Shown here one piece after another: positions 17,332-62,002 of a stretch of 64,000 nucleotides of DNA. The stretch is from Zoroaster sp. YZ-2022 (Eukaryota; Echinodermata; Asteroidea; Forcipulatida; Zoroasteridae). Location: the NCBI GenBank assembly GCA_029582265.1, contig CM055816.1:96622809-96686808 (forward strand). The letters are read 5' to 3'. Positions within the stretch are counted from its first letter, which is position 1. Every line of letters begins with the position of its first letter. The notes under the pieces are model-generated. The model searched no databases. It was not told the DNA's origin and saw nothing but the letters and a program-made list of their open reading frames with translations. The position numbers and the translations under genes were made by a program.

Positions 17332-17399
17332 ATAAGTAGAGGCAAAGGTTGAATTAAAGAACATTGGGGAAAAAAGACAACAATATTTAAAAAATAATA

Positions 17400-17570
17400 A
17401 TAATAAAATATTATTGTTGATTTTACCATAATGTGTGATAAGCACTGTATACTCTGTTTCCCGAGTGCTGCGGAAATAAATACACCATCACTCTGATCGG
17501 GTAAGACTCGAACCTACGATCCCTGCATTCCACAGCAGATGTCTTATCCACTATACCACCATGGTATCCG
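17400..17570 (-). mobile_element. tRNA-derived SINE B (representative)
   Basis: This is a second head on the minus strand (17570 to 17495) with box A TGGTATAGTGG and box B GGTTCGAGTC. It is followed by the same GTCCGCAGCACTCGG-type body and ATT-rich tail as SINE A. It is present in all nine spacers. Confidence 0.65.
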
Positions 17571-17574
17571 CCAA

Positions 17575-17992
17575 CAAAACGCCAGTTCGATCCCCATTCA
17601 TCTGTCGATGGATAATGTAACCACGGTTCACCACTGTACAATAAAGAAGGAGAGTCACTCCCTTCCTTTCTATTTTGGTTTCGATGGATCACCGTTGGAT
17701 TTTTCGTCAAAATAACGGAATGAGGGGATGAAAACAAATTGAAGAGGCTTGTATGTTGTTTGTGTATCCTAATGTGCTTTTCGCGTTGAACACAAACTCT
17801 CTTTTGGGAACTTATGGACCAAAATGGCATGGTGAACCGTACAGGTGCACGCTACAATTAAGTTATGTTTTGCGCAAGCGCATTGCATCATACATCGTCC
17901 TTAAACAATATTTTAAGGGAGTGACTCTCCTTTTTCCTTATTGTACAGTGGTGAACCGTGGTTACACTATCCATCGACGGATTAAAGGAATC
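17575..17992. repeat. Inverted repeat inside each array spacer
   Basis: About 80 bp near 17580-17660, containing ACCACGGTTCACCACTGTAC and GGAGAGTCACTCCC, is mirrored near 17920-17990 by the complement. Roughly 280 bp lie between. The palindrome recurs in every unit. It probably comes from two SINE or MITE copies in opposite orientation. Confidence 0.75.
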
Positions 17993-18066
17993 GAACTGGG
18001 GACTCGTCGGTTCGAATCCCAACCAAGTAGAATGTTTATGTATTTTTGTCCGCAACACCTACAATA
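17948..18066 (+). mobile_element. tRNA-derived SINE C (representative, opposite strand)
   Basis: A third copy of the same SINE family lies on the plus strand, with box B GGTTCGAATCC and the body GTATTTTTGTCCGCAACACC. Each spacer thus carries two copies on one strand and one on the other. Confidence 0.55.
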
Positions 18067-18111
18067 ATATTATTTTAATTGTTTAAATTATTTTTAATTT
18101 TTTAATTTTTG

Positions 18112-18235
18112 GATGATGATTTTGAGGAGGAGAGTGACGAAGATGATGACGATGACGTCCAGCGTCACCTACATCATTGGCATCATCATCATCACGAGAT
18201 GATCACCAACACCATCACTTGCCTTGGCCCTTAAT
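18112..18235. repeat. GAT-rich / CAT-rich segment of the array spacer
   Basis: A GATGATGAC-rich stretch is followed by CATCATCATCATC and GAGATGATC, so the strand can fold on itself. In one frame it reads as acidic residues followed by histidines (EDDDDDVQ then HHHHHE). This recurs in every unit, but the flanking frame is not kept. I regard it as simple sequence. Confidence 0.55.
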
Positions 18236-21200: not shown

Positions 21201-24200
21201 GAGGAGAGTGACGAAGATGATGACGATGACGTCCAGCGTCACCTACATCATTGGCATCATCATCATCACGAGATGATCACCAACACCATCACTTGCCTTG
21301 TCCCTTAATGTATTGTCCCTGAGACAAAGACTGCGGTTTGCCCGCGTTTGGTCACGGCTTCGTATATAAACTAAGAGAAAATTCAGACAATCCCGGCCAA
21401 AATAGTTGGGACACGTGACAATAAACATACCCTGCCCTGTCCCCGCTCTCCGCTCTCCCGCTCCCCCCACCAATGTTGTTATCGCCCAATAAGAGCCAAC
21501 ATTGTCAGGGGGCCGGGGGGCCCAGCGAGATTTGACCGGGATTGTCTGAATTCCCTTGTAGTATGTGAGCGACATGGCCATTTTATCCATGCGCTTATTG
21601 TCTGTCTTTGTGAAAAAAAATTTTGTTCAGTTTATTTTATTTTATTATTACAGTAGTATTATTAAGTTTTCTCTGGAGGGGTGTTTGGTTTTGTTTCCCA
21701 AACATGAAATGGCGTCCAAAGGTTGAATTAAAGATCATTTTTTTGGGAAAAAATAATAATAATGATAAAATATTATTGTAGATTTTACCTAACGTGTGAT
21801 AAATTATACTCTGTATACTCAGTGTTTCCAGAGTGCTGCGGACAAAAATATACAAACGTTCTACTCGGGTGGGATTCGAACGTACGATCCCCGCGTTTTA
21901 ACGCAGATGTGTTAACCACTACACCACCGTGGCACCCGAATAAGTAGAGGCAAAGGTTGAATTAAAGAACATTGGGGAAAAAAAGACAACAATATTTAAA
22001 AAAAAACAATAATAATAAAATATTATTGTTGATTTTACCATAATGTGTGATAAGCACTGTATACTCTGTTTCCCGAGTGCTGCGGAAATAAATACACCAT
22101 CACTCTGATCGGGTAAGACTCGAACCTACGATCCCTGCATTCCACAGCAGATGTCTTATCCACTATACCACCATGGTATCCGCCAACAAAACGCCAGTTC
22201 GATCCCCATTCATCTGTCGATGGATAATGTAACCACGGTTCACCACTGTACAATAAAGAAGGAGAGTCACTCCCTTCCTTTCTATTTTGGTTTCGATGGA
22301 TCACCGTTGGATTTTTCGTCAAAATAACGGAATGAGGGGATGAAAACAAATTGAAGAGGCTTGTATGTTGTTTGTGTATCCTAATGTGCTTTTCGCGTTG
22401 AACACAAACTCTCTTTTGGGAACTTATGGACCAAAATGGCATGGTGAACCGTGTACGGTGCACGCTACAATTAAGTTCTGTTTTGCGCAAGCGCATTGCA
22501 TCATACATCGTCCTTAAACAATATTTTAAGGGAGTGACTCTCCTTTTTCCTTATTGTACAGTGGTGAACCGTGGTTACACTATCCATCGACGGATTAAAG
22601 GAATCGAACTGGGGACTCGTCGGTTCGAATCCCAACCAAGTAGAATGTTTATGTATTTTTGTCCGCAACACCTACAATAATATTATTTTAATTTTTTAAA
22701 TTATTTTTAAATTTTTTATTTTTGGATGATGATTTTGAGGAGGAGAGTGACGAAGATGATGACGATGACGTCCAGCGTCACCTACATCATTGGCATCATC
22801 ATCATCACGAGATGATCACCAACACCATCACTTGCCTTGTCCCTTAATGTATTGTCCCTGAGACAAAGACAAAGACTGCGGTTTGCCCGCGTTTGGTCAC
22901 GGCTTCGTATATAAACTAAGAGAATTCAGACAATCCCGGCCAAAATAGTTGGGACACGTGACAATAAACATACCCTGCCCTGTCCCCGCTCTCCCGCTCC
23001 CCCCACCAATGTTGTTATCGCCCAATAAGAGCCAACATTGTCAGGGGGCCGGGGGGGCCCAGCGAGATTTGACCGGATTGTCTGAATTCCCTTGTAGTAT
23101 GTGAGCGACATGGCCATTTTATCCATGCGCTTATTGTCTGTCTTTGTGAAAAAAGATTTTTTGTTCAGTTTATTTTATTTTATTATTACAGTAGTATTAT
23201 TAAGTTTTCTCTGGAGGGGTGTTTGGTTTTGTTTCCCAAACATGAAATGGCGTCCAAAGGTTGAATTAAAGATCATTTTTTGGGGAAAAAATAATAATAA
23301 TGATAAAATATTATTGTAGATTTTACCTAACGTGTGATAAATTATACTCTGTATACTCAGTGTTTCCAGAGTGCTGCGGACAAAATATACACAAACGTTC
23401 TACTCGGGTGGGATTCGAACGTACGATCCCCGCGTTTTAACGCAGATGTGTTAACCACTACACCACCGTGGCACCCGAATAAGTAGAGGCAAAGGTTGAA
23501 TTAAAGAACATTGGGGAAAAAAGACAACAATATTTTTTAAAAAATAATAATAATAAAATATTATTGTTGATTTTACCATAATGTGTGATAAGCACTGTAT
23601 ACTCTGTTTCCCGAGTGCTGCGGAAATAATACCACCATCACTCTGATCGGGTAAGACTCGAACCTACGATCCTTGCATTCCACAGCAGATGTCTTATCCA
23701 CTATACCACCATGGTATCCGCCAACAAAACGCCAGTTCGATCCCCATTCATCTGTCGATGGATAATGTAACCACGGTTCACCACTGTACAATAAAGAAGG
23801 AGAGTCACTCCCTTCCTTTCTATTTTGGTTTCGATGGATCACCGTTGGATTTTTCGTCAAAATAACGGAATGAGGGGATGAAAACAAATTGAAGAGGCTT
23901 GTATGTTGTTTGTGTATCCTAATGTGCTTTTCGCGTTGAACACAAACTCTCTTTTGGGAACTTATGGACCAAAATGGCATGGTGAACCGTGTACGGTGCA
24001 CGCTACAATTAAGTTCTGTTTTGCGCAAGCGCATTGCATCATACATCGTCCTTAAACAATATTTTAAGGGAGTGACTCTCCTTTTTCCTTATTGTACAGT
24101 GGTGAACCGTGGTTACACTATCCATCGACGGATTAAAGGAATCGAACTGGGGACTCGTCGGTTCGAATCCCAACCAAGTAGAATGTTTATGTATTTTTGT

Positions 24201-27200
24201 CCGCAACACCTACAATAATATTATTTTAATTGTTTAAATTATTTTAAATTTTTTAATTTTTGGATGATGATTTTGAGGAGGAGAGTGACGAAGATGATGA
24301 CGATGACGTCCAGCGTCACCTACATCATTGGCATCATCATCATCACGAGATGATCACCAACACCATCACTTGCCTTGTCCCTTAATGTATTGTCCCTGAG
24401 ACAAAGACAAAGACTGCGGTTTGCCCGCGTTTGGTCACGGCTTCGTATATAAACTAAGAGAAAATTCAGACAATCCCGGCCAAAATAGTTGGGACACGTG
24501 ACAATAAACATACCCTGCCCTGTCCCCGCTCTCCGCTCTCCCGCTCCCCCCACCAATGTTGTTATCGCCCAATAAGAGCCAACATTGTCAGGGGGCCGGG
24601 GGGCCCAGCGAGATTTGACCGGGATTGTCTGAATTCCCTTGTAGTATGTGAGCGACATGGCCATTTTATCCATGCGCTTATTGTCTGTCTTTGTGAAAAA
24701 AGATTTTTTGTTCAGTTTATTTTATTTTATTATTACAGTAGTATTATTAAGTTTTCTCTGGAGGGGTGTTTGGTTTTGTTTCCCAAACATGAAATGGCGT
24801 CCAAAGGTTGAATTAAAGATCATTTTTTGGGGAAAAAATAATAATAATGATAAAATATTATTGTAGATTTTACCCTAACGTGTGATAAATTATACTCTGT
24901 ATACTCAGTGTTTCCAGAGTGCTGCGGACAAAAATATACAAACGTTCTACTCGGGTGGGATTCGAACGTACGATCCCCGCGTTTTAACGCAGATGTGTTA
25001 ACCACTACACCACCGTGTCACCCGAATAAGTAGAGGCAAAGGTTGAATTAAAGAACATTGGGGAAAAAAGACAACAATATTTTAAAAAAAATAATAATAA
25101 TAAAATATTATTGTTGATTTTACCATAATGTGTGATAAGCACTGTATACTCTGTTTCCCGAGTGCTGCGGAAATAAATACACCATCACTCTGATCGGGTA
25201 AGACTCGAACCTACGATCCTTGCATTCCACAGCAGATGTCTTATCCACTATACCACCATGGTATCCGCCAACAAAACGCCAGTTCGATCCCCATTCATCT
25301 GTCGATGGATAATGTAACCACGGTTCACCACTGTACAATAAAGAAGGAGAGTCACTCCCTTCCTTTCTATTTTGGTTTCGATGGATCACCGTTGGATTTT
25401 TCGTCAAAATAACGGAATGAGGGGATGAAAACAAATTGAAGAGGCTTGTATGTTGTTTGTGTATCCTAATGTGCTTTTCGCGTTGAACACAAACTCTCTT
25501 TTGGGAACTTATGGACCAAAATGGCATGGTGAACCGTGTACGGTGCACGCTACAATTAAGTTCTGTTTTGCGCAAGCGCATTGCATCATACATCGTCCTT
25601 AAACAATATTTTAAGGGAGTGACTCTCCTTTTTCCTTATTGTACAGTGGTGAACCGTGGTTACACTATCCATCGACGGATTAAAGGAATCGAACTGGGGA
25701 CTCGTTGGTTCGAATCCCAACCAAGTAGAATGTTTATGTATTTTTGTCCGCAACACCTACAATAATATTATTTTAATTTTTTAAATTATTTTTAAATTTT
25801 TTATTTTTGGATGATGATTTTGAGGAGGAGAGTGACGAAGATGATGACGATGACGTCCAGCGTCACCTACATCATTGGCATCATCATCATCACGAGATGA
25901 TCACCAACACCATCACTTGCCTTGTCCCTTAATGTATTGTCCCTGAGACAAAGACTGCGGTTTGCCCGCGTTTGGTCACGGCTTCGTATATAAACTAAGA
26001 GAAAATTCAGACAATCCCGGCCAAAATAGTTGGGACACGTGACAATAAACATACCCTGCCCTGTCCCCGCTCTCCGCTCTCCCGCTCCCCCCACCAATGT
26101 TGTTATCGCCCAATAAGAGCCAACATTGTCAGGGGGCCGGGGGGCCCAGCGAGATTTGACCGGGATTGTCTGAATTCCCTTGTAGTATGTGAGCGACATG
26201 GCCATTTTATCCATGCGCTTATTGTCTGTCTTTGTGAAAAAAAAATTTTTGTTCAGTTTATTTTATTTTATTATTACAGTAGTATTATTAAGTTTTCTCT
26301 GGAGGGGTGTTTGGTTTTGTTTCCCAAACATGAAATGGCGTCCAAAGGTTGAATTAAAGATCATTTTTTTGGGAAAAAATAATAATAATGATAAAATATT
26401 ATTGTAGATTTTACCCTAACGTGTGATAAATTATACTCTGTATACTCAGTGTTTCCAGAGTGCTGCGGACAAAAATATACAAACGTTCTACTCGGGTGGG
26501 ATTCGAACGTACGATCCCCGCGTTTTAACGCAGATGTGTTAACCACTACACCACCGTGGCACCCGAATAAGTAGAGGCAAAGGTTGAATTAAAGAACATT
26601 GGGGAAAAAAGACAACAATATTTAAAAAAAAACAATAATAATAAAATATTATTGTTGATTTTACCATAATGTGTGATAAGCACTGTATACTCTGTTTCCC
26701 GAGTGCTGCGGAAATAAATACACCATCACTCTGATCGGGTAAGACTCGAACCTACGATCCCTGCATTCCACAGCAGATGTCTTATCCACTATACCACCAT
26801 GGTATCCGCCAACAAAACGCCAGTTCGATCCCCATTCATCTGTCGATGGATAATGTAACCACGGTTCACCACTGTAATAAAGAAGGAGAGTCACCCTTCC
26901 TTTTCTATTTTGGTTTCGATGGATCACCGTTGGATTTTTCGTCAAAATAACGGAATGAGGGGATGAAAACAAATTGAAGAGGTTTGTATGTTTGTGTATC
27001 CTAATGCTTTTCGCGTTGAACACAAACTCTCTTTTGGGAAACTTATGGACCAAATGGCATGGTGAACCGTGTACGGTGCACGCTACAATTAAGTTCTGTT
27101 TTTGAGCAAGCGCATTGCATCATACATCGTCCTTAAACAATATTTTAAGGGTGACTCCCTTTTCCTTATTGTACAGTGGTGAACCGTGGTTACACTATCC

Positions 27201-29248
27201 ATCGACGGATTAAAGGAATCGAACTGGGGACTCGTCGGTTCGAATCCCAACCAAGTAGAATGTTTATGTATTTTTGTCCGCAACACCTACAATAATATTA
27301 TTTAAATTTTTAAAATTAGTTTTAATTTTTTTATTTTTGGATGATGATTTTGAGGAGGAGAGTGACGAAGATGATGACGATGACGTCCAGCGTCACCTAC
27401 ATCATTGGCATCATCATCATCACGAGATGATCACCAACACCATCACTTGCCTTGTCCCTTAATGTATTGTCCCTGAGACAAAGACTGCGGTTTGCCCGCG
27501 TTTGGTCACGGCTTCGTATATAAACTAAGAGAAAATTCAGACAATCCCGGCCAAAATAGTTGGGACACGTGACAATAAACATACCCTGCCCTGTCCCCGC
27601 TCTCCGCTCTCCCGCTCCCCCCACCAATGTTGTTATCGCCCAATAAGAGCCAACATTGTCAGGGGGCCGGGGGGCCCAGCGAGATTTGACCGGGATTGTC
27701 TGAATTCCCTTGTAGTATGTGAGCGACATGGCCATTTTATCCATGCGCTTATTGTCTGTCTTTGTGAATTTTTTTTTTTTGTTCAGTTTATTTTATTTTA
27801 TTATTACAGTTGTATTATTAAGTTTTCTCTGGAGGGGTGTTTGGTTTTGTTTCCCAAACATGAAATGGCGTCCAAAGGTTGAATTAAAGATCATTTTTTG
27901 GGGAAAAAATAATAATAATGATAAAATATTATTGTAGATTTTACCCTAACGTGTGATAAATTATACTCTGTATACTCAGTGTTTCCAGAGTGCTGCGGAC
28001 AAAAATATACAAACGTTCTACTCGGGTGGGATTCGAACGTACGATCCCCGCGTTTTAACGCAGATGTGTTAACCACTACACCACCGTGGCACCCGAATAA
28101 GTAGAGGCAAAGGTTGAATTAAAGAACATTGGGGAAAAAAGACAACAATATTTTTTTTTAAATAATAATAATAAAATATTATTGTTGATTTTACCATAAT
28201 GTGTGGTAAGCACTGTATACTCTGTTTCCCGAGTGCTGCGGACATAAATACACCATCACTCTGATCGGGTGAGACTCGAACCTACGATCCCTGCATTCCA
28301 CAGCAGATGTCTTATCCACTATACCACCATGGTATCCGCCAACAAAACGCCAGTTCGATCCCCATTCATCTGTCGATGGATAATGTAACCACGGTTCACC
28401 ACTGTACAATAAAGAAGGAGAGTCACTCCCTTCCTTTCTATTTTGGTTTCGATGGATCACCGTTGGATTTTTCGTCAAAATAACGGAATGAGGGATGAAA
28501 ACAAATTGAAGAGGCTTGTATGTTGTTTGTATATCCCTAATGCGCTTTCGTGTTGAACACAAACTCTCTCTTTTGGGAACTTATGCACCAAAATGGCATG
28601 GTGAACCGTGTACGGTGCACGCTACAATTAAGTTCTGTTTTGTGCAAGCGCATTGCATCATACATCGTCCTTAAACAATATTTAAGGGAGTGACTTCCTT
28701 TTCCTTATTGTACAGTGGTGAACCGTGGTTACACTATCCATCGACGGATTAAAGGAATCGAACTGGGGACTCGTCGGTTCGAATCCCAACCAAGTAGAAT
28801 GTTTATGTATTTTTGTCCGCAATACCGACAATAATATTACTTTTATTTATTTATTGTATGATGATTTTGAGGAGGAGAGTGACGAAGATGATGAGGATGA
28901 CGTCCAGCGTCACCTACATCATTGGCATCATCATCATCACGAGATGATCACCAACACCATCACTTGCCTTGTCCCTTAATGTATTGTCCCTGAGACAGAG
29001 ACAAAGACAAAGACTGCGGTTTGCCCGCGTCTGGTCACGGCTTCGTATATAAACTAAGAGAAAATTCAGACAATCCCGGCCAAAATAGTTGGGACACGTG
29101 ACAATAAACATACCCTGCCCTGTCCCCACTCTCCGCTCCCCCGCTCCCCCCACCAATGTTGTTATCGCCAGCCGGAGCACAGACCGCCCAATAAGAGCCA
29201 ACATTGTCAGGGGGCCGGGGGGCCCAGCGAGATTTGACCGGGATTGTA

Positions 29249-30180: not shown

Positions 30181-31800
30181 TTACAATACGTTTTTATGAT
30201 ATTTTCGAAAAATCAAGTAATTACAGAAGTTAAACAAATTATACCCGCTACGGTTTTGTACGTGTATACGCCGCAATGTTTGTTGCACAATAAACAAACG
30301 ATTATTGGAGGAAACATTTCTCAACACACGCATGCTGGATACTTCGTTTGCGTGCGCGCTATGTAGTGGAACGGCTATGTTGTAGGTTTCAAAGCGCGGT
30401 GAAACATTAACAGGCAAGTCTCCTTCATTATCTTCATTTACAAGGGACATTCTCTTCTCATATTTGGTTACCGTGTCTTTATCCAAAACTGACTGGAAGA
30501 CCTGAAACGCATGATCAGCTCCTTGTACGGGGGCACTTGTGACGGCCTCAGCTGTGCATGTGCTTGACTGAAACGTCAAAGATGGCTTCAGCTTGTCATT
30601 GGAAATGGCTTGTCTGTTTATGGGATAAATCCCTGAAGACTTGAAACTGTTGGCAATGGTAAGAGGCTTGTAGAAAGCACCAACAGTTTTGTGTAGCTTC
30701 CTTGGGAATGTTGCTTTGTTGATTGGTTTCCCTGGGTGCTCCTTGGTATTTTTCTTCACGGTTGTATTCCACTGCCTCTTCAATGGACCAAACATACCCA
30801 CATCTAATGGTTGCATCAGATGGGTTGCATTTGGGACAATGCGAACGAGTTCAATACCATGAGCAACTGCATAGTCAAATGTGTTGATATCAATATGGCA
30901 GGACGCACTATCAATGAGGAGAACAACCGGGCGCTCAGGACCAGCATGTCTGTCAAAATGATCCAGGAATTTTAGGAACGTATCACCATCTATCCATCCC
31001 TTCTTTGTATAGTGGACAGCTGATCCTCTCGCTGACCCAACCAATGGATCATATGCTGTGGGACGTGGCTTTGGGAAAACAAAGAATGGTGGCATAAGTG
31101 CTCCTTCTGCACTACCATAAAACATTACTGTTAATCGCTGCTTTGTGGATCCCCCCGAGAGATGTGGTAGTGAACCTGGATATTCCGACGTGCCCTGACT
31201 TGCTTCCCATCTGAAATCCAGTTTCATCTGCATTCCAGATTCTGTGTGGTTTGTCCAATAATTGCAGATTGGACACAAATTCATTGTAACTCTCGAACCA
31301 TTCATCGATTTTGTCTTGTGTTACTTTTATTCTTGATGATTCAAGCACCTTCTTCTTTGAACTACATCAGAGTTTCTTGCCATGAATCCGTAGTACCAAG
31401 TGTAGCTGGGTCTACTGGTCTGAAGATTTCTCCTCCTCCTTCTTTAGAAGTCCCTCAACAAAATCAAGGAAATATCCATTTCTGACAGCCACCTAGCAAG
31501 AGCACGCTCTTCCTCAATATTAAAAATTGACACTGGACCATTCCTGCTATCAATCTCTACATCACCGGATACTCTCCTATGTAGAAACCCATATGACAAA
31601 TTATTTTGTCGTGCTGCTTTTTATTGACATTTTGTTTCAACTACCTGATGAACTGCTTCCTCAATGCTTGACGCTCTGTTGGGTGATCTTGTATGGAAGC
31701 CCCTTGAATACCTTTTCCGTCCCTTACTCTTCTTCGAAGGTTGACTGAAGGTAGTCATCAGCGTCCCCTTCCTCTTCCCCATTATCTGAAGAAAAAATAT
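30181..31800 (-). pseudogene. pogo/Tigger-like transposase (Tc1/mariner superfamily), broken
   Basis: The main frame (30181-31305) shows a DDE_1-type catalytic core: VVLLIDSASCHID for the second acidic residue and HLMQPLDVGMFGPLKRQWN for the third. The first aspartate lies in IWNADETGF, which is in another frame (31112-31348). The two frames meet in a run of six G on the coding strand near 31150, so a one-base change there shifts the frame. Further upstream, fragments such as EEERALARWLSEM and WYYGFMARN match the CENP-B/Tc5-type DNA-binding region but contain stops. No terminal repeats were found. The element is dead, or the G-run length is a sequencing artefact on top of older decay. Confidence 0.85.
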
Positions 31801-50288: not shown

Positions 50289-50539
50289 GAAGAGTTGGGT
50301 CTCACCTTATTGTCCAGGCTGTGTGTCGTCACCTATTCTCGGCTGCAATCCCGTTTCTGTTCCACACGGGGACTTTTGCCTGCTGCGTTTCCGCCCTGGG
50401 CCGGTTCGTCCATCTTCAATCAACCTGGTCGTCCCAACCACCGCTGAGCTAACCATGTTAATGCCGAGTTTAACGTGGACACACCAGGGCTCCGGCTTCC
50501 AAAGTCACTGGATTACAGGCGCACGCCACGACGGCCAAC
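50289..50539 (-). pseudogene. 7SL (SRP RNA) copy A, internally deleted
   Basis: On the minus strand it aligns with the full-length 7SL at 61702-62002. It keeps the Alu-domain 5' end, the ATTAACATGGTTAGC region and the CCCAGGGCGGAAACG region. About 50 bases on the 5' strand of the long S-domain helix are missing, so SRP assembly should fail. The 5' part with its upstream flank is tandemly duplicated (50476-50603 and 50602-50730). Confidence 0.85.
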
Positions 50540-50744
50540 CGCGAAAAGCAGTAAATTTTAACTTCTTGTTCACAAAATCATTATAAAGATATCCAAAATA
50601 CGTGAACACACCAGGGCTCCGGCTTCCAAAGTCACTGGATTACGGGCGCACGCCACGACGGCCAGCCGCGAAAAGCAGTAAATTTTAACTTCTTGTTCAC
50701 AAAATCATTATAAAGATATCCAAAATAAATCATATAAATCATAT

Positions 50745-50825
50745 CGTCGTGGACAGCATTTGAACGTGCGCGGGTTACCCCACTGGATTTCAAGTCCAAC
50801 ACCTTAACCACTCAGCCACCACGAC
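50745..50825 (-). tRNA. tRNA-Ser(TGA)-like, probably a pseudogene
   Basis: The minus-strand sequence has acceptor GTCGTGG/CCACGAC, box A TGGCTGAGTGG, the anticodon loop CTTGAAA (anticodon TGA) and the long variable arm of tRNA-Ser. The T arm (CACGTTCAAATGC) breaks two pairs and alters box B. It lies directly upstream of 7SL copy A on the same strand. Confidence 0.65.
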
Positions 50826-51322
50826 TGCGGATTGTAAAATTAAGAGAGAATACAGTTTTTCGTATCAACTTACAGAGGAAATTGACCGATGCTCACGTTA
50901 AATAAAGAAACTTACTCAGTACGGAATAATTGACCGACAGGTACGGAAGTACTTTTTTTAAAATTCTAAACTCCTCAAAAAAGTTCGGAAACTCAAGTTT
51001 GACTGACGATTTCTCTTGTTACCAACTCATTTTCCTTGCATTTGGTATAATTGGAAAGCCCTGTTATTCATCTTTACAATGATGTGTCATTTGTTATGAT
51101 TACGCAATTGGGGGATGTGCAGCACCGGTGAATATGGGGGTGGGTGTAAAGTGAAATGTTGCAAAATGGCCCATCATTGTAAAGGTGAATAACTGGGCTT
51201 TCCAATGATACCAAATGCAAGGAAAATGAGTTGGTAACAAGAGAGAAATCATTAGTCAAACTTGAGTTTCCGAACATTTTTTGAGGAGTTTAGTTAAATT
51301 ATCTATCTTTATAATTCATTAT

Positions 51323-51484
51323 CAGGAAAGCGCGAACGCAGCCCCCACTATCAGAAATTGTACTGCCGAGTTCCCCACATTTGAGGGAATCGCAAAGGTC
51401 AACCCCGCCTGGTGTGCAATAGCCGAGCCTCACCTTGGGAGAATCGCCCGTTTGATCATGATATCTCCTGAGCCAGGTAAGTAT
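51323..51484 (-). ncRNA. RNU1: U1 snRNA gene, intact
   Basis: The minus-strand transcript starts ATACTTACCTGGC, the sequence that pairs with 5' splice sites. Stem-loop I contains CATGATCA (U1-70K site), stem-loop II contains ATTGCAC (U1A site), and the Sm site reads CAATTTCTG. The 3' stem-loop contains GCTGCGTTCGCGC. Length is about 162 nt against 164 in human. The upstream flank (51485-51560) is conserved at the second U1 copy, which suggests a shared promoter. It is probably functional. Confidence 0.95.
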
Positions 51485-51560
51485 GATTACAACAATGATT
51501 GTATGGGTGGTGCCTTTCAGGAGGGTGCAAGCTAACCATGGTATGTTCATTATGAACAAG
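51485..51560 (-). promoter_or_regulatory. U1 proximal promoter (PSE region)
   Basis: Upstream of the U1 start, a block containing TTAGCTTGCACCC and CCTGAAAGGCACC is nearly identical to 61024-61100 upstream of the other U1 gene. It lies where the proximal sequence element of snRNA genes is expected (about -40 to -70). Confidence 0.6.
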
Positions 51561-51639
51561 CAGTCATCCGTTTTGACTAATTCACTGTGCGTGCATTTGT
51601 TACGTCTCCTATGCAAATTAGGAAGGTCAGAGGTAATTT

Positions 51640-51800
51640 TGAACACCGTGTCGAGTCCAGTTTAGCGGAGTCAAAACTTAACTCGACTTGAATCAACTCG
51701 GGTGAAACACCTGGGGATAGTCAAATCAAGCCGGCCATCTTGGTCAAGTCGAGTCACCTCGAGTGACGAGTTGGACACAATGAACCAGAATGTAGGGTCG
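51640..51800. repeat. GAGTC-rich flank shared with 61185-61570
   Basis: The AACTCGACTTGAATCAACTC and GCCATCTTGGTCAAGTC segments between U1 and 7SL copy B recur between the second U1 and 7SL copy D, where part of the flank is itself doubled. This shows that U1 and 7SL were duplicated as one block. Confidence 0.85.
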
Positions 51801-51920
51801 TTCCCTTATTTCCTTTATGCTAAAAAATGTACCACTATCTAAAAACACATCGCAACAATAGGGGTCATTAGTGGCTTATGTATGGGGGGGGGGGGGCACA
51901 AAAAAGGAAAGAAAAAAGGA

Positions 51921-52108
51921 AGAGTTAGGTCTCACCTTATTGTCCAGGCTGTGTGTCGTCACCTATTCTCGGCTGCAATCCCGTTACTGCTCCACACGGG
52001 GACGTTTCCGCCCTGGGCCGGTTCTTCCCTCTTCAGTCATCCTGGTCGACCTAACCTCCGCCGAGCTAACCATGTTAATGCCGAGCTTAACGTGGACACC
52101 CGATTGTC
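51921..52108 (-). pseudogene. 7SL (SRP RNA) copy B, 5'-truncated
   Basis: It matches the 3' two-thirds of the full-length gene but stops in GTGTCCACG, losing about 100 nt from the 5' end. It also has a 13-nt internal deletion in the GACTTTTGCCTGC region. The Alu-domain 5' half and the box A/B promoter are gone, so it is inactive. Confidence 0.88.
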
Positions 52109-52138
52109 AAAAATAGCATTAAGATTATCAAAAAAAAT

Positions 52139-53413
52139 CGTCATGGACAGGATTCGCACCTGCGCGGGTATCCCCATTGGTAAAACCAGTGGGGGCGTGG
52201 CTCAGTAGTTACCTGGGTGGTCTCAATCACTCAACAACAGTAGCCGATGAGGACACTTTAATCTTTTCTTTGTTCAGGACCCCACGCACCAAAGCTATCG
52301 AAACATCTATGGTGCGGGCCCTGTCCAAATTTCGCATGTCGGTGTGGTTGGCTAGAAACAGAGCAAAATACGATCACAAGCCGACCACACCGACTGCACT
52401 TTTAAATAACCTAAAATACTTTTTGTAGTGTCCTCATTGACTACAGGACCTGTTTTCTCAAACCCCGTTTATTAGCTAACACCTTTAAATTTGCTAAAAT
52501 TAGTCAAAGAAGGAAATTTTCTCCTTCTTCCTTTAAATTAGCTTAAATACGTCAAGGGAGAATTTTCTTTTCTCCTTCCTTTAAATTTTGACAAATTTGT
52601 TAATTTGCTTAAATTAGGTCAAGGGAGAAATTATTCTCCTCCCTTAAAATTAGACATTTCTTGTTTTCTTCTTCAAAGCGTTTAAACTGATTCACTCATT
52701 TTAATTGTAATTTATATTTTCTGTAATACGTGTATATTTTATTTATAAGAATAAAATATCTTTGAAAAGGTATCCCCATTGGTAAAACCAGTGGGGGCGT
52801 GGCTCAGTAGTTACCTGGGTGGTCTCAATCACTCAACAACAGTAGCCGATGAGGACACTTTAATCTTTTCTTTGTTCAGGGCCCCACGCACCAAAGCAAA
52901 GCTATCGAAACATCTATGGTGCGGGCCCTGTCCAAATTTCGCATGTCGGTGTGGTTGGCTAGAAACAGAGCAAAATACGATCACAAGCCGACCACACCGA
53001 CTGCACTTTTAAATAACCTAAAATCCTTTTTGTAGTGTCCTCATTGGCTACAGGACCTGTTTTCTCAAACCTCGTTTATTAGCTAACACCTTTAAATTTG
53101 CTAAAATAAGTCAAAGAAGGAAATTTTCTCCTTCTTCCTTTAAATTAGCTTAAATACGTCAAGAGAGAATTTTCTTTTCTCCTTCCTTTAAATTTTGACA
53201 AATTTGTTAATTTGCTTAAATTAGGTCAAGGGAGAAATTATTCTCCTCCCTTAAAATTAGACTATTCTTGTTTTCTTCTTCTTCAAACCGTTTAAACTGA
53301 TTCACTCCTTTTACTTGTAATTTATATTTTCTGTAATACGTGTATATTTTATTTATAAGAATAACATATCTTTGAAAGGGTATCCCCATTGGATTGCAAG
53401 TCCAACGCCTTGC
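52139..53413 (-). pseudogene. tRNA-Ser pseudogene split by a doubled insertion
   Basis: Bases 52139-52180 give the 3' part of a tRNA-Ser (GCGCAGGTGCGAATCCTGTC). The anticodon arm lies at 53393-53413, with loop CTTGCAA in place of a Ser anticodon. The 5' end is lost. Two 0.6 kb units lie between. The tRNA-like sequence is upstream of 7SL copy B on the same strand, as for copies A and D. Confidence 0.75.
52181..53378. mobile_element. Two head-to-tail copies of a 0.6 kb insert
   Basis: GGTATCCCCATTGG occurs at 52167, 52769 and 53379. Between them lie two copies, about 588 and 596 bp, of one sequence. Each starts TAAAACCAGTGGGGGCGTGG and ends in AATAAAATATCTTTGAAA or a close variant. The 14-mer belongs to the interrupted tRNA-Ser, so it is a target duplication. 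The GTGGCTCAGTAGTTA start resembles a box A, and the end resembles a polyadenylated 3' end, so a retroposon is likely. Confidence 0.75.
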
Positions 53414-53559
53414 ACATATTGTATGTTATGTTTAGCGGGCAAAGTTGCTGTGCATTTCTAACTATGTTTTTAATTAATGGTATAATGATAAAATTTGAAT
53501 ACCAAAACTAAACACCCTAATAAGTCGTTAGGTTCGAAGTGCCACATCTCCACCGTTGC

Positions 53560-54066
53560 TTTGTTAGCCAAGCATTCAATAATTCTTGCAGTGGCCAGCT
53601 GGATTCGAGCCAATAACTACATCAGCGCAGAGGAGTGCATCCAGGGGGTAGCGAAGGCATTTTCTTTTGGGGGTGGATGCCAAATTGTCGACTGACATCA
53701 ATGGCGTAGCCAGTATTTTCAGAGTAGGTGGGAGGGCAAACATTTTTTGTGGCCCAACCCTAGTTGTAGTACCTTTGATGCTTCATTTGCCGACTGAGGC
53801 TCTAAATACCGACTGAGAAAAATTATTGGGGGTTAATACCCCCACTCGCTACGGCCCTGGGTGCATCCAGGGTAGCAAAGAGCAATTTGCCTAAAAAGGG
53901 GGAAGTCATACGTCACACATAAAAATGTAGGCCTATGCTAAATTTCAGTAATGCCTCTTTGCCCCCATTTGATCATAACCGCATCGACACAGAGACAACG
54001 GCAATTATAAAGGCTAGACGAACAATGTTTCTTGATAAATGCATTCACCTATAATCAATGTACGTG
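53560..54066 (+). repeat. Third copy of the tRNA-Ser upstream segment
   Basis: The segment with CAGCTGGATTCGAGCCAATAA, GTGCATCCAGGG and GACGAACAATGTTTCTTGA matches the region upstream of the tRNA-Ser genes in both palindrome arms (55740-56019 and its mirror). It is more diverged than the arms are from each other. Confidence 0.8.
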
Positions 54067-54148
54067 GTCATGGTGGCCGAGTGGTTAAGGCGTTGGACTC
54101 GAAATCCAATGGGGTCTCACCGAACAGGTTCGAATCCTGTCCATGACG
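54067..54148 (+). tRNA. tRNA-Ser(CGA)
   Basis: The acceptor stem GTCATGG/CCATGAC, box A TGGCCGAGTGG, anticodon loop CTCGAAA and T arm ACAGG/CCTGT are all intact. The variable arm differs from the palindrome copies at a few positions (CTCACCGA), leaving one mismatch. A T run follows at 54167 and could terminate Pol III. Confidence 0.85.
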
Positions 54149-54205
54149 TTAACATTCTTACGCATATTTTTTTCTCCTCAATTGTTAGAATTGAAATTGC
54201 GATTG

Positions 54206-54302
54206 TGGGGGTGAGGTGGGTGTTTCCCATTTCTATCCCCTCATAGGGAGAGGATGGGCGGAGATGGGGAGGAGTTCTCTCATTTCCTTTATGTTTAAAA
54301 AT
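54206..54302. repeat. Conserved block beside 7SL copy C
   Basis: This is the same block as 50137-50232, with the GGTGAGGTGGGTG and TATCCCCTCATAGGGAG segments. It is placed between a tRNA-Ser gene and 7SL copy C. Confidence 0.6.
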
Positions 54303-54423
54303 GTATACACTATCTAAAAAATACAATGTAACAATAGGGTGGATCCAATGAGTGGCTGAAAGGAGGGGAGGGGCTGCTAATACTGTGTGTGGGGGAACAA
54401 AAAAAAAGGAAAGAAAAAAAATA

Positions 54424-54695
54424 AGATTTGGGTCTCACCTTATTGTCCAGGATGTGTGCCGTCACATATTCTCAGATGCAATCCTGTTACTGCTCCACAC
54501 GGGGACTTTTGCCTACTGCGTTTCCGCCCTGGGCCGGTTCCTCTCTCTTCAATCAACCTGGTCGTCCCAACTTCCGCCGAGCTAACCATGTTAACGCCGA
54601 GCTTAACGCGGACACCTGGTCGTCATATACGAGTCGACACAACAGGACTCCCGAATTCATGTGATCCATCCAACCCCGGCTTCCAAAGACACTTG
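54424..54695 (-). pseudogene. 7SL (SRP RNA) copy C, lacking its 5' end
   Basis: It is collinear with the full-length gene from the 3' end to TCTTTGGAAGCCGGG. The last 30 or so nucleotides at the 5' end are replaced by unrelated sequence that is the outer edge of the palindrome. The 5' G of the Alu domain and box A are lost, so it should not be transcribed from its own promoter. Confidence 0.88.
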
Positions 54696-54993
54696 TGGTT
54701 TTAAACGTGATATCTTTGGGCGCGACCCTGGCTACACTATACGTAGTATCCTTGGTCCATTGGAATTCCAATGGGAAAATAAAGAAGCACATAAGATTTT
54801 GATTACAGAAGGATCAAGGCTGTTGATTCGAATATACGAGGTCGCAATGTACAACCGTATCCACGACTTGATCTCTCTGTATAGTACACATGATGTGCGG
54901 GGCCGGAGACGGCGCACAGTCTGTGCTGAATTTCTCGGGCCAGAAATCGGTACGGGGTTGGAAAAAAATATAACGATTCCGTCATTATGTTAA

Positions 54994-55075
54994 CGTCATG
55001 GACAGGATTCGAACCTGTGCGGGGAGACCCCATTGGATTTCGAGTCCAACGCCTTAACCACTCGGCCACCATGAC
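54994..55075 (-). tRNA. tRNA-Ser(CGA), left palindrome arm
   Basis: Every stem pairs perfectly: acceptor GTCATGG/CCATGAC, D stem GCC/GGC, anticodon stem TTGGA/TCCAA with loop CTCGAAA, variable arm GGGG/CCCC, and T stem ACAGG/CCTGT. It is identical to the copy at 56020. A T run downstream (AAAAAAATATA on the plus strand near 54965) can end Pol III transcription. Confidence 0.95.
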
Positions 55076-55145
55076 TACATGCGTTGACTATGGGTGGATG
55101 CATCCATCAAGAAACATGGTTCGTCTGCCATAGTTTAGCATAGCT

Positions 55146-55209
55146 TTGAGCACCACTTAGTTGGTGGATACGTGCGCTATATAAATCCACACATTATTAT
55201 TATTATTAT
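55146..55209. mobile_element. SINE tail fragment in the left palindrome arm
   Basis: It matches the 3' end of the class-II-headed SINE, from GAGCACCACTTAGTTGGTGG to (ATT)n. It is flanked by short ATAGCT copies, and the right arm has the uninterrupted empty site (GATAGCTATGCTAAAC). It is a strongly 5'-truncated insertion. Confidence 0.8.
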
Positions 55210-56019
55210 AGCTATCACAATTGTCGCAGTCTCTATGTCGATGACCTAATCAGATCCAGTGGGGGAAGACAGGCAAGACTTAATTTAGCATACATTGTTG
55301 GCGTTATAATATTATGCCTTAAATTGCCTGTTACCCTGGGATGTTGCGCCGATGAAGTTATTGGTTCGGATCAGCTGCCCATTACAAGGTATTCTTGTTG
55401 ACGTCTGGCTAATTTGATTAACAGTGTAACGGTAGGGTTGTGGACAAGTGTGTGAACAAGTTACTCTATATGCTCTGATATTTCAAAATAAAAGAAGCAC
55501 TTTGGACGCCACTGTTCAAAATAGTGAAGTACGTAAATTATTAAAAAGGGAAATAATTCCCTAAATTAATTTCGAAGAAATCATTTTTCTTGAAAAATTT
55601 ACGTACTTCACTATTTTGAACAGTGGCGTCCAAAGTGCTTCTTTTATTTTGAAATATCAGAGCATATAGAGTAACTTGTTCACACACTTGTCCACAACCC
55701 TACCGTTACACTGTTAATAAAATTAGCCAGACATTCAACAAGAATACCTTGTAATGGGCAGCTGGATCCGAACCAATAACTTCATCGGCGTAGAGAGTGC
55801 ATCCAGGGTAGCAAAGGGCAATTTGCCTAAAAAGAGGGAAGGCATAACATTATAACACACATAACAATGTATGCTAAATTTAAGTCTTGCCTGTCTTCCC
55901 CCACTGGATCTGATTAGGTCATCGACATAGAGACTGCGACAATTGTGATAGCTATGCTAAACTATGGCAGACGAACCATGTTTCTTGATGGATGCATCCA
56001 CCCATAGTCAATGCATGTA

Positions 56020-56101
56020 GTCATGGTGGCCGAGTGGTTAAGGCGTTGGACTCGAAATCCAATGGGGTCTCCCCGCACAGGTTCGAATCCTGTCCATGAC
56101 G
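56020..56101 (+). tRNA. tRNA-Ser(CGA), right palindrome arm
   Basis: The sequence is identical to the left-arm gene, with a full cloverleaf, long variable arm, anticodon CGA and discriminator G. A run of seven T at about 56126 follows. It decodes UCG codons. Confidence 0.95.
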
Positions 56102-56489
56102 TTAACATAATGACGGAATCGTTATATTTTTTTCCAACCCCGTACCGATTTCTGGCCCGAGAAATTCAGCACAGACTGTGCGCCGTCCCCGGCCCCGCAC
56201 ATCATGTGTACTATACAGAGAGATCAAGTCGTGGATACGGTTGTACATTGCGACCTCGTATATTCGAATCAACAGCCTTGATCCTTCTGTAATCAAAAGC
56301 TTATGTGTTTCTTTATTTTCCCATTGGAATTCCAATGGACCAAGGATACTACGTATAGTGTAGCCAGGGTCGCGCCCAAAGATATCACGTTTAAAACCAC
56401 AAGTTAAATAACAAATCATAATTGATTGACCGAGAGGTATTTTTAAGTTTCAATTGATTTGAATTTTGCCCTACACCGACATGTGTATA

Positions 56490-56605
56490 GCACTGTATAC
56501 TCAGTGCTTTCCGAGTGTCTGTGGAAAAAAACGTTCACGGGCAACTCAGGCGGGATTCGAACCCACTACCTCCTGCTTACTAGTGCAGACGTCTTAACCT
56601 CAGTT
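56490..56605 (-). mobile_element. tRNA-headed SINE fragment
   Basis: The minus strand shows box B GGTTCGAATCCCGCC and the body CACAGACACTCGGAAAGCAC, followed by GAGTATACAGTGC. These match the SINE family of the 13.9 kb array. The head is diverged. Confidence 0.6.
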
Positions 56606-56739
56606 ACATCATCTATCTTTTAATTGTATTACCAGGGAGAGCGCGAACGCAGTCCCTACTATCAACAATTGTACTCCCGAGTTCCCCACATTTGGGGGGA
56701 TCGCAGACGTTGTGTCTACACTCGTGCAATTCTACAGTC

Positions 56740-56994
56740 TACAGTCTACAATAATTGGCCATTTCATTGGGCGAGAGTCTACAGTCTACAATAAATCTAC
56801 GAACGTTGATTGGCTTAGAGTCTACAGTCTACAATAATGCCACCTCATTAGCATAACATTTGTACAGCGGATCGAGTCTCGTTGCTTCCCACGGTTTTTC
56901 AACTATGCTCAGATCGCTCAGAGCGAACATAATCAAGTTACGTTTTCATCAGTGTTAAAGCTCCCAATATTGTTCCTGATCTGGTGTCTGAAAG
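56740..56994 (+). promoter_or_regulatory. CCAAT-rich promoter and untranslated exon in the insert
   Basis: ATTGG (inverted CCAAT) occurs near 56752, 56771 and 56808. It is followed by a non-coding stretch ending in AAAG then GTAAGA, a good splice donor at 56994. The matching acceptor (TTTTATATTTGTAG) is at 58314, six bases before the ATG of the 52-codon frame. Confidence 0.4.
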
Positions 56995-58320
56995 GTAAGA
57001 ACATAACATAGATTGTGTGATAAATTCCATGAGAATAATGTCCGTCTTGTCACTATATATTTGAGTGCAAAATCAGCGTAAATCAGTGTAAGAAAACTTA
57101 CTCGTTAGTTAAAGGTACTGCACACATTTAATGGCACACAGTACGTTGTGTGGAAAACACCGCCTGTGTGCATATTTATATTGTGTAGGCCTACAATGTA
57201 CATGTGCAAAAAGCTGTTGTTTATTGTCTTATTTTCTACAAAAACCTCCTCCAACTGAGGATTTGAATAAAATGTATAATAATCAACATTAAAAGCCAAT
57301 TATTTTCATTCAGCTTGTAGTTGTACCCTGGCAGACTTTAAATTGCCAACCAACACAGGTTTGTAGGTGCCAATAATTTCTTGTTCATCAATGAATTCAC
57401 TGAATTCACAATGAGTACATGATACACTTTTTTAATAATAGGCAAATACTCTTCATAAAATCAGAGTTTAAATATGACATTTACCATGAATTATAGAGAA
57501 TTTAGACCCTTCATTGTTTCAATTGTGACCAGAGGTGACCTCTACACTGAGGCTTTGTGGGTTGGGAAACTCATTTGATATAAACAATCCAAGATGGTTT
57601 CAGGGAAACGTTAGGTCATTCAAATCCTTGGAGATAATTGGTTTTTGATAAACAAACAACCTCCCTGGAGATTGGTTTTTAATAAACAAAAACCGCCATT
57701 TAACACAACACAAGTCTGAGTCAGAGTACAAGTTGGTTTTGGTATGAGTTGACAACATATAGCATTGATGAAGAATATAAATAAATATACTCTAATACTG
57801 TTTCAAAAAAAGTATTTTCAAGAGACAAATATGTTTTTCTGAACACTTCACTTCCAAAATGATAAACAATGTATTATATCATCATGGAGTAAACAAAACT
57901 GATCATAAAAATTGTGTCAGTGTCATTCTTATATCTGAAACTTGATGTAGCAAGTTTATCTCAGAAAGCTGGTTAAACAAAGTGTGGTTACACTTACAGT
58001 TACAGACAATACACTTATGATTGAGCCATGGAGGAAGGAAATACATTGAGCCCTTTTCACACGACATAGCCATTTTTAAGGAAATAATCAAAGTGATTTT
58101 TCGCCCCACATACCCAACTGATGGAAAAACACACCCATGTGATGCCACCCTTGGGTTGGGTCAGAAAAAAGTTAGTCCCTCTGACTGGGTAATTAAAAAA
58201 ATGTAATCCAGTGGCAGTCATTTGTTAGGTGCTTACTACATGTAGTCTACCCTTTGATTGTTTGATTTTAATATTACCCTTTCCCTTTGTTTTGAAACTT
58301 TTTTATATTTGTAGATCAAC

Positions 58321-58479
58321 ATGGAGTCAGATGCCCCTAAAAGCCTTCTTCCCAAGCTCCGCATCCATGATCTTAGCATCAGAGAGGATCTGCAACAGTG
58401 TGTTTTGCGGTGTTCACGTGCTGCATTCGAATACCAAAAGAAACAAAAAGACCCCAATCCTAAGGCTGCTGATAAGTAA
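58321..58479 (+). CDS. 52-aa ORF in the Dada-like element
   Basis: It starts MESDAPKSLLPKLRIHDLSI, contains a Lys/Gln-rich stretch (YQKKQKDPNPKAADK) and ends in TAA. It begins six bases after a strong 3' splice site, and the upstream phase is closed by a stop, so this ATG is the likely start. The peptide has no recognised domain. It may be the first coding exon of a longer protein if a donor near 58475 (GATAA then GTAACA) is used. I cannot assign a function. Confidence 0.4.
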   Translation: MESDAPKSLLPKLRIHDLSIREDLQQCVLRCSRAAFEYQKKQKDPNPKAADK

Positions 58480-60926
58480 CAAAGTGTGAGGTAACAAAGC
58501 GCTCTACTTCAAAAGGTCTCAACAATAGGGAATTTGTAAATTTTGAGCACTTTAAGGCTGCAGTTGACCAGCTTGAAGGATAGAAAAATCATTGACATAA
58601 TTTGTGATAATCTCATCATGCCATGTCTTTTAAAGATGCATCGCCCAATTTTTTGCCACTTTGACCCCAAAATGCTATCTAACATTTAAATCAAAATTTT
58701 CTGGTCAAATCGGCCAAAAATTGGGTGATGCATCTTTAACTAACTCAAGTTGTCTTAGGTCAAGCAAGCCAAGTATAAAAGCAGTCATATTCACTGGTCA
58801 AATTGCAAGTAATGTTTTCTTAAAATATTACAACATGATTCCATTCTACAATTGCAATTGCAAAAGACTTTAATTCTTTTCACAGGCCTTTTGAAACTTG
58901 TAACTTGTACTGGAACGCTTTGTTAGTACTACTTCCTACAGTATTTTTTAGGTTGTGTACCATCAGTTGGGGGGGGGGGGGCAACCAAATAATTTGGGGG
59001 TGCGGTGATTTATTATTATTAAATAAGTCTACGTTACATTGCTGCTAATTGTAGAAGTTGTTGTACCGAACTACATGTGCATTTTTCAAACAGTCTGATT
59101 TTACAGGGAATGCACAAAATATGTTTTCATTGCGAAAATCAACCAAATCCTACAGTTTGTTTATTTTCAATCTCGTTTGGGGAGGGAGGCGGGGGCAAAG
59201 GTTCTGAGTAGGGGGAGAGCTGGTCCCCACCACCCCAACCTCATTGAACTGGTTGTGCTTCTGTTTTGTACACACAGTAAGCGGATAATCTAATACTTGG
59301 CCATGTCATGTTCGGACAAGTCAAATACCACATTATTGTAGCTTATGACTATAAACAAGTCTCTAAAACAAATTACTGCATATAAAGTTACATATAAATC
59401 AAAGATTTTTATTAAGTGTCATATCTCCTGAACTACATGACTTAATCTTTGCATTTTGTAGATCATGAATTACTAATGGTTCATTTTATGCTCAGACATG
59501 ACCCCATTTTTACCCTTCCTTCCAGTCCACACTTGAAGTTGAAAATGAAAAAAAATTGTTATACAGCCAAAATATGGTTTGGTACTTGGATATGTGCCAT
59601 GGTTTCTATGTACTATATGAAATCATCAAAGATCCTTTTGGAATGATCGAAGGTTTAATGACGTCATGCTTTGTAGTTAGTGACGGGTTTAAAAAGGCTG
59701 TTTTTTCCATCTCACACTTTAATACAGTGTGATAAATCATACATCCTATTTTTGTAACTAATATTAACTAAACCAGTCAACAAAACAAGCTATACATGTC
59801 AACACGACGTCATCTTGGATTGTAGTAAATCAAAGTTTAATATTATTTTATAATCTTTTGTGTCATGTTGAAATAGTGAAGTTTTATAATATACATGACC
59901 CTGTTTGATCTTTACTCCTGCTTCAAACAGGACGTTCAAATACGAAATAATTGAGAAGAACATAGGGTTTACGACCAAGTTTATATAGAAATCGGATATG
60001 GTTTCTGTGTATGAAGAATGACAGATGGAATTCTTGAATTGGATTATTTCAACCATTTACATTTAGTTTGCTTTTTGCTGACAGAGTGCTCAGTGCTCAA
60101 TACTCAGTGCTTCTCAAATTCATTTAGGCAGAAAATTATCAGGTAACTGATTGCGAAAATGTTTGAGTATACATCCCAATGCTTTTACTTGGTAGGTGAA
60201 TCCTTGCTCAACTAAATCACATCTCAGAGTATTTCAACCCAGGTATGGAAAGCACAGAGTAATTAAATGTATACGAAGCACAATGAAACAAAGTCACATA
60301 TTATGCTGCCATGTTTGTAAATAAACATAATTGTTATATGTACTTGTACATGTAGTCATCTTTTGTACATGTATCTTGGGTCAATTATTTCAATTATTAT
60401 CTGTGACAAAGTAAGCTTGGATAATAAAAAGCAATATAGTAAATGTGTCAGATAACACCAAACATTTTCCTATGTGTTATTTTGTTATGCTTTAGTTGTG
60501 TGTCCACAACATGATTTTCAAATAAGCGGACTTGTATTCAATTGGCAAGGTGACAAATGATGAGAAACTCAATAATTCCTGAGGATTTCTTTAAAATTAT
60601 AATAAGGGACCTAAATCAGCTCCATGGGACTGGGGTTCATGAACTTGAATAAGAACGAAAATATTATTTCCACCTTATAGCTCTCTTTATTATAAACCTT
60701 ACTTTATTTCATTAAATCGGCATCAAATGAAAATCAATAGTTACTACATTGCAGTGGGATTTCAATAAAAAGATTAAGTCACATAACAATTTGCACGGTT
60801 TAGACAAGACAAGTACCATTAAACTCAGTAGTGCATAGATTCATTCATAAATTTACTCATTAGGTGACGTTAATAATTCCGGGGTGCCGATTGGTCAAGA
60901 ATTGCACGAAGAACCAGTCGACCGCC
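58480..60926. other. Rest of the 4.2 kb insert; no gene seen
   Basis: AT-rich sequence with an 11-G run near 58971 and an inverted ATTTTTTGGC/GCCAAAAATT pair with flanks near 58645 and 58710. No transposase-like frame was found on either strand. Confidence 0.5.
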
Positions 60927-61184
60927 GATCGCAAAGGTCAACCCCGCCTGGTGTGCAATGGCCGAGCCTCGCCTTGGGAGAATCGCCTGTTTGATCACGA
61001 TGTCTCCTGAGCCAGGTAAGTATGATTAAAAATATGATTGTATGGGTGGTGCCTTTCAGGAGGGTGCAAGCTAACCATGGTATGTTCATTATGAAGAAGC
61101 AGTCATCCGTTTTGACCAATTCATTGCGCATGCGCTGTTAAGTCTCCTATGCAAATTAGGGAGGTCAGAGGTAATTTTTGGACA

Positions 61185-61570
61185 CCTTGTCGAGTCCAGT
61201 TTAGTGGAGTTGATACTTAACTCGACTTGAATCAACTCGGGTCAAACACGTTGGTATAGTTAAGCGGAGTCAAAACTAAATCGACTTGAATCAAGGTATA
61301 GTCGAGTCAAATGAGCCGGCCATCTTGGTTGCAAATTAATAATGCAAACTAGGGAGGTCAGAGGTCATTTTTGGACACCGTGTCGAGTCCAGTTTAGCGA
61401 ATCGGTACTTAACTCGACTTGAATCAACTCGGGTCAAACACGTTGGTATAGTCAAGCGGAGTCAAAACTAAAATCGACTTGAATCAAGGAATAGTCAAGT
61501 CAAATTGAGCCCGCCATCTTGGTCAAGTCCATCAGTCACCTCGAGTGACGAGTTGGACACATGAACTAGA
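61185..61570. repeat. GAGTC-rich flank between U1 and 7SL copy D
   Basis: Two tandem versions of the block seen at 51640-51800 (AACTCGACTTGAATCAACTC, GTCAAACACGTTGGTATAG) lie here. They explain why U1 and 7SL are about 240 bp further apart than in the other block. Confidence 0.8.
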
Positions 61571-61694
61571 ATGTTCTCTTATTTCCTTTATGCTAAAAAC
61601 GTATCACTATCTGAAAAACACATCGCAACAATTAGTGGCTGAAAGGAGGGGAGGGGTCTGCTAACTTATGTATGGGAGGCACAAAAAAGGAAAG

Positions 61695-61701
61695 AAAAAA
61701 A
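61695..61701 (-). terminator. Pol III terminator of 7SL copy D
   Basis: A run of seven T on the minus strand comes directly after the 3' end ...GAGACCCAACTCTG of the 7SL gene, the standard Pol III stop signal. Confidence 0.75.
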
Positions 61702-62002
61702 CAGAGTTGGGTCTCACCTTATTGTCCAGGATGTGTGCCGTCTCCTATTCTCGGATGCAATCCCGTTACTGCTCCACACGGGGACTTTTGCCTGCTGCGT
61801 TTCCGCCCTGGGCTGGTTCGTCCCTCTTCAATCAACCTGGTCGCCCCAACCTCCGCCGAGCTAACCATGTTAATGCCGAGCTTAACGTGGACACCCGATC
61901 GTCATAGACGAGTCGACACACCGGGACTCCCGAACTCATGCGATCCATCCAACCCCGGCCTCCAAAGTCACTGGATTAAAGGCGCACGCCACGACGCCCA
62001 GC
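61702..62002 (-). ncRNA. RN7SL: 7SL (SRP RNA) gene, full length
   Basis: The minus-strand sequence of 301 nt starts GCTGGGCGTCGTGGCGTGCG, aligning with the Alu-domain 5' end of human 7SL. It contains GATCGGGTGTCC, CGGCATTAACATGGT, GACCAGGTTG and CCCAGGGCGGAAACG, then ends GAGACCCAACTCTG. Human 7SL is about 300 nt. 7SL is the scaffold of the signal recognition particle, which delivers ribosomes making secreted proteins to the ER. It is the only complete copy of four and probably the functional one; the others lack pieces. A tRNA-Ser remnant lies 85 bases upstream. Confidence 0.95.

Follow-up and report, generated by a model that had tools for sequence, protein, structure and literature searches.

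Dada is a superfamily of DNA transposons, many members of which are specific for set positions within genes for small RNAs. The mark of the superfamily is a DDE transposase with a DxxH motif and with N- and C-terminal zinc fingers. The complete elements described are 4666–10979 bp long, and the range given for their target-site duplications is 6–7 bp (PMC3706591). The closest described systems are the zebrafish elements Dada-U1A_DR and Dada-U1B_DR, which are inserted in U1 genes with a duplication of GCGAAT or GCGAAC after CT (Kojima and Jurka 2013, PMC3706591). As characterized in that paper, the zebrafish Dada-U1 elements have no terminal inverted repeats and carry the sub-terminal words GTGCAAT and ATTGCAC; the GTGCAAT word is also present near the site in the fish U1 gene. 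Eight bases match at the zebrafish junctions, and the authors interpreted them as a 6-bp duplication. The Dada-U1 target has since been printed in the plus-strand (anti-U1) orientation, as ATTCGCAGGGGTC (Kojima 2022, PMC8869645). One internally deleted Dada derivative, Dada-U6N1_DR, sits at its family's own site in zebrafish (PMC3706591).

The published range of Dada-U1 is narrow. In a survey restricted to vertebrates, ray-finned fish of five orders are recorded as carrying Dada-U1, and the other vertebrates are given as without target-specific Dada (PMC8869645). In Table 1 of the original description no Dada is entered for an echinoderm, and zebrafish is the only source of Dada-U1 (PMC3706591); in 2015 Dada-U1 was named as the only U1-targeting transposon reported so far (PMC4640811). 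Among the matches listed in our literature survey, which covered titles and abstract openings of published papers, none names a Dada-U1 outside fish. Utopia and Keno resemble the insert presented below in being mobile elements of snRNA genes, and sea urchins and one starfish are among the reported hosts of Utopia; unlike the insert, both are non-LTR retrotransposons and occupy the U2 gene (PMC4640811).

We analyzed one 64-kb stretch of DNA, called here the window. It contains a U1 snRNA gene on the minus strand that is broken into two parts by a 4.2-kb piece of DNA. An intact U1 gene in the same window serves as the uninterrupted reference. The three gene segments are as follows.

60927–61023, minus strand: 5' part of the split U1 gene (nt 1–97, the last bases being the duplicated site), from Rfam and alignment to the intact paralog.
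56633–56704, minus strand: 3' part of the split U1 gene (starting with the counterpart of that duplicated site), from Rfam and alignment to the intact paralog.
51321–51484, minus strand: intact U1 snRNA gene, Rfam score 121.7 bits.

The gathering score of the Rfam U1 model is 69.5 bits. Both parts of the split gene lie within matches below this score, at 60878–61023 (minus strand, 63.5 bits) for the 5' part and at 56632–56787 (minus strand, 50.5 bits) for the 3' part. Both matches run past the U1 halves into the insert, an extension made by the program. Joining the flanks to restore the empty site gives a gene that agrees with the intact paralog in 149 of the 166 columns of the alignment. The 250 bp upstream of the split gene also resembles the intact locus (219 of 251 columns match), while in the 100 bp downstream only 58 of 113 columns match and the similarity ends there. 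Within 56633–56704 the split gene has AATTGTTGAT where the intact gene has AATTTCTGAT. This stretch is presumably the Sm-site region of U1, and the change is perhaps decay after inactivation.

The junctions and the ends of the insert are defined by the following features.

56699–56704: left target-site duplication GATCGC, read from the sequence; the A at 56705 also matches as a seventh base.
60927–60932: right target-site duplication GATCGC, read from the sequence, with the seventh base A at 60933.
56705–60926, plus strand: insert of 4222 bp, likely a non-autonomous Dada-U1 element, delimited by the duplication and recognized by its end boxes and U1 site.
56722–56733, plus strand: left sub-terminal box TCGTGCAATTCT, with core GTGCAAT at 56724–56730; its single plus-strand occurrence in the window, core offset 19.
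60898–60909, minus strand: right sub-terminal box, the same TCGTGCAATTCT inverted; its single occurrence on that strand in the window, core offset 19.
56736–56837, plus strand: three copies of the 19-base repeat AGTCTACAGTCTACAATAA near the left end, starting at 56736, 56776 and 56819.

The heptamer GATCGCA is found at both breaks (56699–56705 and 60927–60933). The first-pass annotation of this DNA had described two U1 halves with GATCGCA at each break and an intact U1 gene nearby as reference. Both points hold: the halves are recovered by Rfam, by the 149-column identity and in the sequence itself, and the intact gene by its Rfam score. That annotation also took the duplication to be 7 bp. 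Seven bases do match at both breaks, but the true size is likelier to be six. When a 6-bp duplication is assumed, GTGCAAT begins after 19 nt at both ends, whereas with 7 bp the offsets become 18 and 19. We take the duplication as 6 bp because the core is then 19 nt from both junctions, and the seventh matching base is probably due to chance.

On the U1 strand the duplication reads GCGATC and covers U1 nt 92–97, where the intact host gene has GCGATT. It is preceded in the host by TT, compared with CT in zebrafish. The intact paralog reads AATCGCA at the site, and both copies flanking the insert carry G in place of the A. This G is common to both breaks; either the target had it already or the element brought it. 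The intact U1 gene has a second GCGATT, at nt 38, which is not the site that was used, in keeping with recognition longer than six bases, a hint given by a single insertion.

The ends of the insert do not form a terminal inverted repeat; over their first 17 bases they agree at only 5 positions. The symmetry lies further inside. The 12-bp box TCGTGCAATTCT occurs once per strand across the whole 64-kb window, and these two occurrences are the two end boxes. As a control, 59,700 pairs of positions in the window were taken, each pair separated by 4222 bp. In 39 of these pairs GTGCAAT lies no more than 60 nt inward of both positions, and a single pair, this insert, has it at equal offsets. An in-register run of at least 12 bases was found in 1 of 20,000 random pairs of 60-mers drawn from the window. 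When the two 60-nt ends (the left from 56707) are aligned locally with gaps, the score is 25, a value reached by 8 of 1000 shuffles of one end; this control is weaker and does not require register between the ends. GTGCAAT is present in the host U1 gene as well, 20 nt from the site compared with 19 nt in the insert ends. In human U1 this spacing is 19. To our knowledge, no inverted end boxes are expected in Utopia or Keno. The three AGTCTACAGTCTACAATAA repeats possibly serve as a promoter or as transposase-binding sites.

The comparison with fish Dada-U1 is close. Both share the same position in U1 and a 6-bp duplication beginning with GCGA, both are without terminal inverted repeats, both carry sub-terminal GTGCAAT and ATTGCAC at their two ends, and in both the word recurs in the U1 gene. 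They differ in that the host of the insert is probably not a fish and that no transposase is visible in this copy. The insert, at 4222 bp, is also shorter than the shortest published complete Dada (4666 bp). No Dada-type DDE transposase is visible in this copy, as in any non-autonomous copy, so its superfamily has to be deduced from the target and the ends. On these grounds the insert is very probably a Dada-U1 element that lacks a transposase and would have been moved in trans. Against this assignment stand the shortness of the end word, with only 7 bases, the modest gapped comparison of the ends, the difference of one nucleotide in the U1 spacing and the presence of a single copy in the window. 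Dada-U6N1_DR offers a parallel, being likewise non-autonomous, located at its family's own snRNA site and retaining both ends; unlike the insert, it targets U6, has another end word and has a known autonomous parent. The first-pass annotation had already proposed a Dada element with no visible transposase. The Dada reading gains support from the U1 position, the 6-bp duplication and the GTGCAAT/ATTGCAC words at both ends, and the lack of a visible transposase agrees with our scan of the interior.

The interior of the insert has a G+C content of 35%, and its longest stop-free stretch is 90 amino acids. A transposase was sought by scanning the 30 stop-free stretches of at least 45 amino acids, including 58229–58486, against Pfam. 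No stretch reached the cut-off; Pfam may lack a Dada model. Four of the 30 gave matches with E values from 0.033 to 0.21, each below its own cut-off. Three further features of the interior are described here.

56995–58314, plus strand: predicted intron leading from an untranslated first exon to the 52-residue open reading frame, from a splice-site matrix.
58321–58479, plus strand: open reading frame of 52 amino acids, its ATG in the context AACATGG, possibly the remnant of a first coding exon.
58630–58739: short palindromic element lying inside the insert and edged on each side by TTAA, recognized by its inverted repeat, its fold (z -9.4) and its edges.

The donor at 56995 ranks 5th of 3908 on the plus strand of the window and is the best donor of the insert. 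The acceptor at 58314 ranks 29th of 3210 on the same strand, and a higher-scoring acceptor is present at 58885, also on the plus strand. These ranks come from an approximate matrix typed from general knowledge. The motif ATTGG occurs three times in the first 200 nt of the insert on the plus strand, where 0.55 is expected. The 52-residue frame has no relative in Pfam (E up to 1) or in the PDB (E up to 10). It found no candidate in a protein collection in which only proteins of similar length were compared, so that a long transposase starting with this exon would be missed. The plus-strand exon-like features run antisense to U1. It may be that the 5' part of a transposase gene survives here as the 52-residue frame, the predicted intron and a left end resembling a promoter. 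These features may also be due to chance, as comparable scores are given by other sites, such as the acceptor at 58885 and another at 56988 on the opposite strand.

The nested palindrome may have entered after the insertion or may have travelled in with the insert. Three Rfam microRNA matches between 58624 and 58745 were not taken as microRNA genes, because they overlap the palindromic element and their scores fall well short of the gathering threshold. In a search of the 64-kb window for other copies, the insert matches only itself, the nested palindrome and the left-end repeats. A 20-base end word gave no match in viral contigs, a result with no bearing on animal genomes.

These interior features bear on a version of the same explanation, with an unchanged mechanism of mobility, in which the insert is not an internally deleted derivative but a once autonomous full-length Dada-U1 that moved itself and then lost its transposase gene through decay in place. 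At 4222 bp the insert comes near the shortest complete Dada (4666 bp, PMC3706591), and an exon-like start is present. Against it stand the 35% G+C, the lack of a stop-free stretch above 90 amino acids and the lack of any remnant recognized by Pfam, which may be without a Dada model. The U1 flanks retain about 90% identity with the intact gene. For an insertion of that age, it seems excessive that over 1000 codons should have become unrecognizable, and we consider decay in place unlikely, preferring a copy mobilized by a transposase supplied in trans.

A chance hit on the U1 gene by a DNA transposon of another superfamily, such as P or hAT, is still less probable, and we would be surprised if it proved correct. 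Elements of these superfamilies have terminal inverted repeats at their very ends. The insert has none, and its duplication is 6 bp, at most 7. The P and hAT duplications of about 8 bp are near the 6–7 bp seen here (PMC3706591), and the insert shows no transposase by which its superfamily could be identified. A chance insertion nevertheless leaves unexplained both the exact Dada-U1 position and the in-register occurrence of the Dada-U1 end word on the two sides. An artefact of assembly or rearrangement that set unrelated DNA between two U1 fragments is hardly credible: the neighbourhood is rearranged, with a 455-bp inverted duplication near the split gene and a downstream similarity to the intact locus that stops (58 of 113 columns), but the duplicated target and the symmetrical end boxes mark transposition, and a chance join yields neither.

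For the Dada-U1 element moved in trans, the following mechanism can be proposed. A DDE transposase made elsewhere in the genome would bind GTGCAAT at both ends of the insert. It would recognize GTGCAAT together with the sequence around GCGAT in U1 genes, make a 6-bp staggered cut and join the element ends, and repair would then produce the duplication. The cut would fall at the foot of the stem-loop that we take to be the third of U1; in the Rfam structure line of the intact gene a stem begins at the cut position. As U1 genes are multicopy, losing one would cost the host little. With less support, the left end, the intron and the 52-residue frame would be the 5' remains of the transposase gene in an internally deleted or decayed copy. 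A broader interpretation is a reasonable possibility, which we advance tentatively. In it, U1-targeting Dada would be an old animal lineage extending outside fish, its transposase would read GTGCAAT in both the ends and U1, the 19-nt spacing would be set by the transposase complex rather than by the host gene, because the element keeps 19 nt where the host U1 has 20, and the element would carry the promoter, the intron and the first coding exon of an undescribed Dada gene.

The identity of the host matters for the known range of the family. Both U1 copies were compared with human U1, and 126 of 165 columns agree (76%). Fish U1 and human U1 are much closer to each other than this. With only 76% identity to the human sequence, the host is probably an invertebrate and not a fish or other vertebrate, as judged from its U1 genes. 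An echinoderm host, suggested in the first-pass annotation, is possible. Provided that the host lies outside the fish, the Dada-U1 insertion is likely new for the host group, and the range of this site-specific family then likely extends beyond fish. The same site and the same seven-letter word, found with a host U1 spacing that is one base off, test the proposal that end box and target share a recognition word. The insertion also points to where a U1-targeting transposase should be sought.

The split gene lies in a cluster of small RNA genes (50289–62002) in which U1, 7SL (SRP) RNA and tRNA-Ser genes are mixed. Three 7SL RNA genes score above the Rfam gathering threshold and a fourth reaches 69.8 against 70 bits; there are four tRNA-Ser genes. 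The 7SL copy at 50289–50666 contains a 127-bp tandem duplication. An inverted duplication with arms of 455 bp (54691–55145 and 55950–56404) that are 99.1% identical carries one tRNA-Ser (CGA) gene per arm; a few hundred bases separate it from the split U1. Elsewhere in the window there are two tandem arrays. One, at 15344–29247, repeats a unit near 1.54 kb about nine times, with most copies 94–97% alike, and the other, at 1–5429, holds slightly fewer than three copies of a unit near 1.88 kb. A Pogo/Tigger-like DDE_1 transposase frame of 379 amino acids from stop to stop is found at 30184–31320 on the minus strand. It has 44 relatives, none above 60% identity among the 12 with animal names (molluscs, a priapulid and one sea cucumber). 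An endonuclease open reading frame at 5481–6317 has 57 relatives.
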